Shown in pieces: positions 36,482 through 39,322 of a stretch of DNA of 64,000 bases. Source of the stretch: a virus; the IMG/VR virus record IMGVR_UViG_3300028800_000001, positions 124,001 through 188,000 of that record. One strand, written 5' to 3'. The notes below the pieces were generated by a model. It saw nothing but the letters and a program-made list of their open reading frames with translations. It searched no databases and was not told where the DNA came from. Both the position numbers and the translations under genes were made by a program. How positions within the stretch are numbered: the stretch's first letter is position 1; the number at the start of each line of letters is the position of its first letter.

Positions 36482-37174
36482 TCAGGCTGATTTATTTCTG
36501 AGATATTCAAGAAACTCGTCAGCCGTTTTATCGCATTTTGAGAAATTGCAGTATTTGCACGCTGGAACAATATTGCTGATATCATTACTGCCGCCCCTGG
36601 AAAGAGGTTGCATATGATCAACAGTAAACCAGTTTGCTTGCTCACCACAATAATAACAGCACCAGTCAAGCTGATTGCATACTTCCTCAAATTGCTCGTT
36701 CGTCCAGTTACCAGGGGCACCCGCAAGGCGAGCACGATAGGCCACTAAGTTTCTGCGCTTTGTCGCCCGATAAAGCTCAGGCTTGGCCGCGTAACGGGCT
36801 CGTGCCAGCGCATTTTGCTCTTCCCGAAAAGGCGCTTTGTTCAACCGATAGTTTTTGCGACAATGCTCTTTCCACTGCTCAGGATTATCTTCAATCCATT
36901 GCTTGTGGTCAGCCTTGCGCTTCTCCCAATGCTCTTTACGCCATACAGCATTATGCTGCTTATAGTATTCAGGATTTTTAGCGTATGAATCTTTGTTGTT
37001 TTGCTTAATCTTTTCAGGATTCGCTTTGCGATAGTTTTTGGCATAACCAGCTTCCCGTACATGCTCCCGTTTACTTGAGCATGTATCACAAAAGCGTCTG
37101 CGCTTCGCATATGTCTCAACACTGGCTCCGCAAGTTTCACACAAGATAGTATAAAGCTTATTCGATCTTGGCAT
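36482..37174 (-). CDS. HNH homing endonuclease (free-standing)
   Basis: 230 residues from ATG 37174, with AAGGAA upstream. An N-terminal zinc finger (CETCG...CDTC), a long Lys/Asn-rich helical spacer containing repeated KNYRKANPEK-like units, and a C-terminal HNH core: CCYYCGE, FTVDHMQPLSRGGSNDISNIVP and ACKYCNFSK. It has its own zinc knuckles and is flanked by hairpins. It does not interrupt an adjacent gene, so it is a free-standing mobile endonuclease. A TATACT hexamer at 37216-37221 (minus strand) could be its -10 box, but there is no clear -35. Confidence 0.9.
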   Translation of the reverse strand: MPRSNKLYTILCETCGASVETYAKRRRFCDTCSSKREHVREAGYAKNYRKANPEKIKQNNKDSYAKNPEYYKQHNAVWRKEHWEKRKADHKQWIEDNPEQWKEHCRKNYRLNKAPFREEQNALARARYAAKPELYRATKRRNLVAYRARLAGAPGNWTNEQFEEVCNQLDWCCYYCGEQANWFTVDHMQPLSRGGSNDISNIVPACKYCNFSKCDKTADEFLEYLRNKSA

Positions 37175-37307
37175 ATTGTTTCCTTTCTGAATATACAAAG
37201 AATATTTCTATCCTAAGTATACCCTAAAGGTCAATAGATTGGCTCGCGGAGCCACTTTGATAGCTATTTTGATGTATGCATCTTTTGCATGTTATGCATC
37301 AATTATA

Positions 37308-38134
37308 CTATGAAACTGAGATTTTGTGCTTAAGAATCGCCTCCGGCAATACCACTTGACCGCCAACACGTTTGCGTGCGATAAAGCCGATCTGCCCCAG
37401 GTCTGCGTAGCGCTCTGTTAAGCGTGTCATCACCATCTGAACGCGGTCTACGATGACGTAGGCACGTTTGAAATCCCCAAACATGATCGGATAGGCATTG
37501 GCCGCAACAATCGGCATATCCGGTGTTTCCATGTAGGGATGGTCAAGGATCGTATTTGGAATGTCAGAGGCAATTCCAGGTTGCCAGAGATATTGACCGT
37601 ACGAGTCCTTCAGGGTACGGATCGTCCCAAGGGTGGAACGGTTCATAATCCAGGTTGCATTCTTTGCGTACGCGCTTTTGAGCGTATAGGCAGTTGTGAT
37701 CAGGCCATCAGCCGTCAGCGCACTACCGCTGGTACTAGGGACGTAACTGACACTGCTATTGGTAAGCAGCCCTTCTGGTTTGCCGACACCGTTACCGTTG
37801 ACGAAGGCTGCACCTTCGGTGACTGCAAACTGCTCAGCGCATTCCATCTGGATTTGCTGTGCCATATCAAAGTACGCATCTTCCATATCAGCATATGTGA
37901 TCAAGACGAGTGCATACATCTCGTGGCTCATGATCTCTTCTTGACCGTACTTGAGCCCCTGCGTCTCTGCGCGGCTGGCCTGCTCAGCAACCCAGGACGC
38001 GGCAAAGGTCGCGGTACGCGTTGGGAAGAGGATCGATTTGTTTTCGGTCTGTCTCACCGTTACGATATCACGAATAGGAGAATACAGCACGATCTGTTTG
38101 ATGATATCCTGCACAAAGTCAGTTGGGGCTAAGT
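37308..38134 (-). CDS. Major capsid protein, exon 2 (HK97 fold)
   Basis: The 3' exon encodes 275 residues from the splice junction. It begins in codon 120 and reads LAPTDFVQDIIKQIVLYSPIR, then the HK97 capsid core: WVAEQASRAETQ, PEGLLTNSSVSYV, WIMNRSTLGTIR, YMETPDMPIVAA, IMFGDFKRAYVIVDR, RYADLGQIGFIARKR. Joined to exon 1 it gives a 394-residue HK97-type capsid protein with the usual N-terminal delta domain. Translation of this exon alone from an intron codon would lack the N-arm. Without splicing, the phage would have no intact capsid gene. Confidence 0.92.
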
Positions 38135-38964
38135 CGCGCCCCGCCCTACGCTTTCGCGTAGGATCGGACCATATCTTCACAACGTACATACTGAAAACCA
38201 GTATGTTTATAGCTATTTGTTGGCGTGTTTTAGCTCGCATCTTTACGGGCCTCCATCATCGCCCAAATTTCACTATTATGACGTTGCATCTCGCGTGTGG
38301 CCTCTGAGGAGCCTCTACGTGACATAGGACCAACTAGCTCAAAGATAGCCATTTCTTCTTCGGTGTACGGCTTAATACGCCCTGCACCGCGTTTGCCATC
38401 TCCAATGTTTGGATTTCTGATGCCCTGGTTTGAAAGACGCAATTCGCAAAATCGAATGATTAATCGTGCTCGTTCTTTCTTTGATCCGATAAGATAGGGT
38501 TGTATCGCTTTCAAAAGAATAACCGCCTGTGCCATACGTTTTATTGTGACGCGATAGTTATCTTTGACGCCAGTTCTGCCTGTTGCGGCGCGAATGTAGC
38601 CATTGACTCCTAAACGTTTCATAATATCGGCTGTCATCAAAACAATTACCTCTTCTGTGTTGCATACATGAATTTCTGGTCGTATGCTGCGATATTGTCT
38701 ACCTTTTTGATCATCCAGGCGAAGGCCAATATAACCTTCTCCATCAATTATCCCTGCTAGCCATCCTAGTTCTACGGGAGTTACCTGCTGATTGTCCATT
38801 TCATCCATTTGGATTCATCCTTTTCATTGTCACCTAGTTAGTAGAAAAGGCTTTAGGGGTTTCCAGCATATAGCGAGATTTACCGTGAGCACTCGGCTCG
38901 TGTAACCCTTAAAGCACTGCTACAGAATAATTCTGATTGCGTGCGATAAAAGCGGTTACGCCGT
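38135..38964 (-). ncRNA. Group I intron in the major capsid gene
   Basis: 830 bases. The 5' splice site follows T at 38965 (GGGT/ACGG); the last intron base is G at 38135. Splicing gives GGG TAC TTA GCC, restoring ...DDTGGGY-LAPTDF... as expected of HK97 capsids. Structural signs near the 3' end: the conserved AAGATATGGTCC (S/P7 strand) at 38166-38177, a TATAGC partner strand at 38208-38213, a P8-like hairpin (38186-38206), and P9 CCTACGC-GAAA-GCGTAGG at 38145-38162. The 5' part carries GCTGGAAACCCC, resembling P/Q elements. Overall this looks like subgroup IA-type; the subgroup is inferred. Confidence 0.9.
38230..38808 (-). CDS. Intron-encoded LAGLIDADG homing endonuclease
   Basis: 192 residues with one LAGLIDADG motif (LGWLAGIIDGEGYIGLR at about 14-30), so it probably acts as a homodimer. 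A predicted second helical region is followed by a basic stretch (TIKRMAQAVILLKAIQPYLIG) and a polar C-terminal tail (GRIKPYTEEEMAIFEL, ATREMQRHNSEIW). ATG 38808 has an AAGGATG ribosome site about 8 bases upstream. The ORF lies inside the intron, before the S element, a usual place for such insertions. It would cut intronless alleles of the capsid gene to spread the intron. Confidence 0.9.
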   Translation of the reverse strand: MDEMDNQQVTPVELGWLAGIIDGEGYIGLRLDDQKGRQYRSIRPEIHVCNTEEVIVLMTADIMKRLGVNGYIRAATGRTGVKDNYRVTIKRMAQAVILLKAIQPYLIGSKKERARLIIRFCELRLSNQGIRNPNIGDGKRGAGRIKPYTEEEMAIFELVGPMSRRGSSEATREMQRHNSEIWAMMEARKDAS

Positions 38965-39322
38965 ACCCACCACCAGTGTCATCCACCTGTTGCAGCACTT
39001 TGACTTCGCCAGGACCGACCAATGGTACCAGATCTTTTTGTTCGCGAGAAAGAGAGCCATACCCTTTGGTAAGTGCCTGAATAAGCGCCATCTTAGATTC
39101 GCTCTTGCTTTCGCCACGCTCTGCCGGAGAGCCCAGGCCAGGACGTGCCATCGCTGTCTCTAGGTGTCCAATACGATCATTCAAGCGATCCATGTGCTGC
39201 TTTGTCTCGCCAGAAACATTGCCAAGCTGCTTGAGCTCTTTATCTTGAACGTCTACGACGCTCTGCATTTCACTCCATGTCGAGCGCATTTCCTCGTACA
39301 TGGTCTTCAAATCAACGCTCAT
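38965..39322 (-). CDS. Major capsid protein, exon 1 (delta domain and N-arm)
   Basis: Exon 1 encodes 119 codons plus the first base of codon 120. It begins MSVDLKTMYEEMRSTWSEM, has a coiled-coil delta/scaffolding segment (KQHMDRLNDRIGHLET), a processing region (PGLGSPAERG to LIQALTKGYG), and ends in the E-loop/N-arm consensus VDDTGGGY. If unspliced, translation would continue only 17 residues into the intron (GVTAFIARNQNYSVAVL). The spliced protein is therefore the functional form. Confidence 0.92.

Follow-up and report, generated by a model that had tools for sequence, protein, structure and literature searches.

Introns in phage capsid genes have been described before. Splicing of the capsid intron in gp13 of mycobacteriophage LittleE (JF937101) was proven by RT-PCR/cDNA and by N-terminal protein sequencing (PMC3706429), and the same paper cites the lactococcal phage Tuc2009, in which the gene of a capsid subunit holds a group I intron. 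The locus described here comes from an uncultivated virus and lies within what we call the window, a stretch of 64,000 nt covering positions 124,001 to 188,000 of the IMG/VR record IMGVR_UViG_3300028800_000001; coordinates are those of the window, and every feature named lies on its minus (-) strand. It resembles LittleE in that an HK97-type major capsid gene is interrupted behind the delta domain, at a shared Gly-Tyr junction, by a group I-type intron that measures about 0.8 kb and includes a gene for a LAGLIDADG endonuclease. The two differ in detail: by the U/G rule the LittleE insertion is 1 nt earlier (GGT/TAC versus GGG T/AC in the window), its endonuclease gene follows the core on the opposite strand and is similar to ours within the LAGLIDADG motif alone, and its P7 is GACUA/UAGUC rather than GGCCA/UGGUC. 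A sequence-only reading of the window had implied that a capsid intron is a rarity and a novelty. Neither is supported, given a proven case 1 nt away and relatives in the capsid genes of many uncultivated phages; a capsid intron with a LAGLIDADG gene is already known, and the lineage is the more interesting part.

Further points of comparison lie outside capsid genes. The introns of Thomasclavelia phages TR-TP1/2, Salmonella phage SSE121, Vibrio phage K470 and the contigs L055, L057 and L063 have P4-P5, P7 and P9 sequence and structure in common with the window's. Unlike it, they occupy DNA polymerase, nrd, terminase and RNA polymerase genes, and their annotated nucleases, where present, are of the HNH type. 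The endonuclease itself is most readily compared with I-MsoI, I-CreI and I-CvuI, which originate from algal organelle introns; like these, it has one LAGLIDADG motif, is intron-encoded and has the same fold in its predicted model.

A Capsid Gene Split at a Single Codon

The interrupted gene (39322-37308) contains an 830-nt insertion (38964-38135). Exon 1 (38965..39322) encodes the delta domain and N-arm in 119 codons plus the first base of a Tyr codon, and has the 3' end GGTGGGT; exon 2 (37308..38134) resumes with the last two bases of that codon and matches TIGR01554 and Phage_capsid (PF05065, 252 bits). The distance between the exons and the cut sites proposed from the letters alone, after T at 38965 and before A at 38134, proved exact. 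Joining them (GGG T/AC TTA GCC) gives the DNA GGTGGGT-ACTTAGCC and a capsid protein of 394 aa, reading DDTGGGYLAPTDF across the join, which matches TIGR01554 (major_cap_HK97) end to end at 332.5 bits (model positions 4-385 of 385), against 302 bits for exon 2 alone. By these profile matches, the interrupted gene encodes an HK97-type major capsid protein.

The exon 1 frame stops at 38909, and that of exon 2 is closed upstream of 38240, leaving no frame open across the whole insertion. As had been argued earlier, this rules out an intein. An intein, or a free-standing endonuclease gene placed within the capsid gene, would account for the LAGLIDADG domain, but this family of explanations deserves practically no credence when the insertion cannot be read through and a covarying group I core brackets the endonuclease ORF.

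Uninterrupted relatives in IMG/VR (L004-L009), which have an empty site, align without gaps across the join, with 73-77% identity over the whole protein, and the partial relative L010 agrees with them. Among 39 capsid loci read upstream from the junction, a set that includes a few overlapping stretches of the same contig, the frame runs on through the site with a single exception, L021, a copy of the intron in the window. These alignments also bear on whether the gene is split at the level of protein. Both reading frames are present as ORFs, and it could be imagined that a 137-aa exon 1 protein and a 310-aa protein starting from 38240 co-assemble as two capsid polypeptides, the insertion being an unspliced endonuclease gene. 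We consider this highly improbable: the gap-free match to uninterrupted relatives is obtained only with the spliced join, the residues unique to each ORF derive from ribozyme sequence, and both the U/G splice rules and the covariation hold. Separately, a frame change within exon 2 of the capsid gene was seen on a short contig (L012:4117, two tblastn pieces), which is either an assembly error or a real break. A host search through capsid relatives in genome contigs returned matches of at most 29% identity and identified no host.

A Covarying Group I Core

The insertion (38135..38964) follows an exon ending in U and itself ends in G, and its earlier assignment to group I is supported. Rfam Intron_gpI (RF00028) aligns over its whole length at 32.9 bits (E 8.1e-6; 4 kb searched with all 4227 families). 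This is below the gathering score of 50, which is a detection cut-off and not a biological criterion; the proven LittleE intron scores 30.7 bits against the same model. Within the whole 327-kb virus record, the group I model matches solely inside the capsid intron.

The elements of the core can be placed individually. P3 pairs AUCUCGC (38873..38879) with GCGAGAU (38288..38294), P4 pairs UGCUG(G) (38863..38868) with (U)CAGCA (38786..38791), and P5 is a CCUUUUC/GAAAAGG hairpin (38819..38850); the P4-P5 segment resembles that of other phage introns. P7 is formed by GGCCA (38298..38302), preceded by J6/7 UCAGA, and UGGUC (38167..38171), with J8/7 GAAGAUA before it. Only 3 nt separate P7 from the 3' strand of P3, leaving no room for P7.1/P7.2. 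P8 pairs GCAACGU (38281..38287) with ACGUUGU (38179..38185), and P9 (38145..38163) is a hairpin. The sequence-only reading had listed the parts of the intron's 3' end, and its core AAGATATGGTCC, GAAA-capped P9 (38163-38145) and terminal G (38135) all stand, whereas the hairpin that it took to be P8-like (ACAUACUG-guuuu-CAGUAUGU, 38186..38206) is a stable hairpin in the P8 loop and not P8 itself.

Pairing in P3 and P7 is conserved over six related introns: all 11 pairs are kept (66/66 cells), and 6/11 have changed on both sides. This covariation score was reached by none of 500 shuffles, and slid registers did not come close; the rows are six hand-cut core segments, the window's included, and the score tests the named pairs rather than a blind prediction. 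In each of the six, P7 is either GGCCA/UGGUC, as in the window, or GACUA/UAGUC, followed by exactly 3 nt and then by a P3' complementary to that intron's own, differing P3. Four introns, each from a different gene, have a fully paired P9 with compensatory changes; this stem was read by hand, as MAFFT misplaced it in a six-sequence alignment. A home-made test for the P3-P7-P8 constellation was too permissive (655/1500 shuffles passed) and was replaced by the Rfam E-value and the covariation. By its ends, model match and covarying core, the insertion is identified as a group I intron with splice sites as placed.

Splice Sites and the Weak P1

Eight introns in HK97 capsid genes were checked at their splice sites (the window, L067, L069, L071, L072, L073, L075 and L119). 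In all eight, exon 1 ends GG(T/A)GGG-T, the intron ends in G, and the same aromatic codon is interrupted in the same phase. In a ninth locus (L070), the insertion seemingly lies 4 nt upstream of the common site. Ahead of the splice site, Gly is encoded by GGG in 8/8 intron-bearing genes versus 1/31 uninterrupted relatives (Fisher P 1.5e-7, indicative only, the sequences being related). Two causes would fit this signature: flanking DNA may have been co-converted during homing, or GGTGGGT may be required by P1 and the endonuclease.

The P1 guide is the one element that is poorly formed in the window. Its position (GCUUUUAUC, 38945..38953) was taken from that in relatives, and a G at intron position 12 lies opposite the exon's last U, as it does in them. 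In seven of the eight introns, a guide of the form G-C-(C/U)-C-... makes 6-7 consecutive pairs with exon 1; the window's is the weakest of the eight, since in the register of the canonical U-G it makes a run of 4 pairs, after which there may be a two-base bulge. An alternative fold in which the last U pairs with A is 4 kcal/mol better for the region than the U-G P1. Both features are what would be expected if the intron were decaying, its core still recognisable but its P1 degenerated. Splicing would then be inefficient or absent, and the capsid gene would be either damaged or dependent on rescue by another copy. We regard such decay as unlikely, since both exons are intact, the endonuclease ORF is open and P3, P4, P7, P8 and P9 are all preserved, and since a second IMG/VR contig (L003) carries the same insertion with 99.93% identity to the window over 10.8 kb. 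On the predicted pairings, P1 is the sole weak element of this copy.

An Endonuclease Gene Overlapping the Ribozyme

The LAGLIDADG endonuclease that had been proposed for the intron is encoded by an ORF of 192 aa (38808-38230; 38230..38808) with a single motif, WLAGIIDGEG. It matches I-MsoI with E 4.7e-8, and scores 22.2 against Pfam LAGLIDADG_3, just under the cut-off of 22.5. Its AlphaFold model (mean pLDDT 77, three sequences) matches the PDB structures of I-CreI, I-MsoI and I-CvuI with E ~1e-7 to 1e-6. In sequence and predicted fold, it is thus an I-MsoI/I-CreI-like endonuclease. It is longer than these three at the C-terminus by about 60 residues, part of which the ribozyme core encodes: the C-terminal stretch RRGSSEATREMQRHNSEI is encoded across P7, P3' and P8, and recurs in L062 as RRGASETIRRAQIERSEI.

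Both ends of the ORF overlap the core. It starts in J5/4-P4' (MDE-MDNQQ; MGNQQ in relatives) and ends in the P8 loop, and its ends therefore double as ribozyme core. The 3' strand of P4 falls within the codons for MDNQQ at the start of the protein, and that of P5 contains AAGGA, the likely Shine-Dalgarno sequence of the endonuclease gene. Overlap between an endonuclease ORF and the intron core is a known arrangement (PMC3984707). The motif AAGGATG...ATGGGCAATCAGCAG is also present in related introns without a long ORF (L063 and L064); the start signals therefore appear to come with the ribozyme. More broadly, AAGGATG...ATGG(G/A)CAATCAGCAG is conserved at 38823-38785 and in the same region of L062-L065 whether or not an ORF follows, and would provide LAGLIDADG or HNH genes with both a ribosome site and a start codon. 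Its place in the ribozyme could ease the swapping of endonuclease genes.

The arrangement bears on how translation and folding might coexist. Formation of P5 may mask the endonuclease start signals. Translation of exon 1 meets a stop 18 codons into the intron, ahead of P3, which should keep ribosomes off the core, a general idea already set out for such introns (PMC3984707).

The gene split, its exact junction, the covarying core, the endonuclease family and the empty alleles can be read directly from the DNA. With high confidence, we interpret them as a capsid gene interrupted by a mobile group I intron whose RNA would excise itself and which would spread by LAGLIDADG-mediated homing. The transcribed RNA would fold its P3-P9 core and then excise by guanosine-initiated transesterification, joining GGGU to ACUUAGCC and thereby yielding one HK97-type capsid protein of 394 residues. 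The intron's endonuclease, which presumably acts as a homodimer in the manner of I-CreI and I-MsoI, would cut intronless capsid genes at conserved Gly-Gly-(Tyr/Phe) codons, and repair would copy the intron in; candidate targets are the sites of L005 or L008, or the GGTGGGTAC version. Splicing in cells, endonuclease cleavage and homing are in this sense what we infer from the locus, the sign of cleavage being an indirect one, namely the common codon and phase of related introns in divergent genes, and it is a fair inference that capsid supply depends on splicing. Few phage proteins are made in such quantity as the major capsid protein, and an intron in its gene must therefore be removed very efficiently. 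The locus makes it testable how one transcript is shared by ribosomes, a ribozyme and an endonuclease gene that overlaps the ribozyme core.

A Lineage of Capsid-Gene Introns

Relatives were sought by ribozyme patterns and by protein. A P4-P5 pattern search returned L062, with an intron at the same site of an HK97 capsid gene and an endonuclease 41% identical to the window's; L064 and L065, whose capsid genes are of a different family, phrog_1357; and L063, where the interrupted gene was judged by eye from the sequence to encode a DNA polymerase. Searching with a P7 pattern yielded L054, in which an HNH-like ORF separates the parts of an N4-type capsid gene (PF13252); at L054:2455-4409, PF13252 model positions 3-61 and 64-375 are separated by a group I-like insertion. 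This HNH-like ORF also starts in P4' (MGNQQ) and continues through the core. Two of the six contigs found by the P7 pattern (L056 and L058) had no other ribozyme part and were set aside as chance matches.

A search seeded with three endonucleases gave 119 viral contigs, 80 of which were kept. In all nine of the nearest relatives with readable flanks (L067-L073, L075 and L119, with L068 and L069 looking near-identical), exon 2 of an HK97 capsid gene follows just downstream. More distant relatives lie in other capsid families; phrog_1357 is the match for 22 of 45 additional downstream ORFs, and other ORFs match further major-head families. A capsid segment lies immediately downstream in at least ~47 of 79 non-self loci, an enrichment which, coming from a search seeded with capsid-intron endonucleases, shows the habit of this clade and not that of phage introns generally. 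Some of these loci are not introns, as L126, L130 and L138 look free-standing beside an intact capsid gene. LAGLIDADG relatives that are seemingly free-standing directly upstream of an intact capsid gene were also seen in L128 and L134.

Capsid genes of the phrog_1357 type have two insertion points, after NSLGG and after QPLxKFR, and each is uninterrupted in phages carrying the other. LAGLIDADG or ORF-less introns were seen in such genes in L064, L065/L103, L083, L088, L098, L106, L114, L127 and L143, with a further site after about model position 116-119.

Searched alone against 84,980 genomes, the endonuclease found no relative. Against 50,697 phage records it hit a single species, Streptomyces phage Faust, where the 30% identical match is a LAGLIDADG gene and the region read contains no capsid gene. 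The nearest hits to the lineage's endonucleases in those records are partial and 25-30% identical, which may be why the lineage has so far gone undescribed; a full-text search of the open-access literature returned no description of a capsid-specialised intron lineage.

Divergent capsid genes carry related introns that share one codon and one phase, and by this sequence evidence the window's intron belongs to a widespread capsid-targeting lineage and is not a rare one-off. On balance, we favour the broader reading that this is an undescribed lineage of mobile group I introns with LAGLIDADG genes, specialised on phage major capsid genes, which has settled in one conserved codon of HK97-type genes as well as at different sites of at least one additional capsid family, and carries its endonuclease start signals inside the P5-P4 region. 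Its repeated return to capsid genes suggests that conserved structural genes are its preferred niche, and that metagenome annotations wrongly list many split capsid genes as fragments. The intron endonuclease of phage PhiPA3 has been shown to act as a weapon between co-infecting phages (PMC11620839), and by analogy capsid introns could serve as an invasion weapon.

The intron endonuclease has a neighbor. An HNH endonuclease gene (36482-37198; phrog_1035 endonuclease VII-like, PF01844) separates the capsid gene from the next head gene (36183-35710), at a position where the relatives L006 and L012 have no gene. Together with the intron's own gene, this places two mobile nucleases at the capsid locus.
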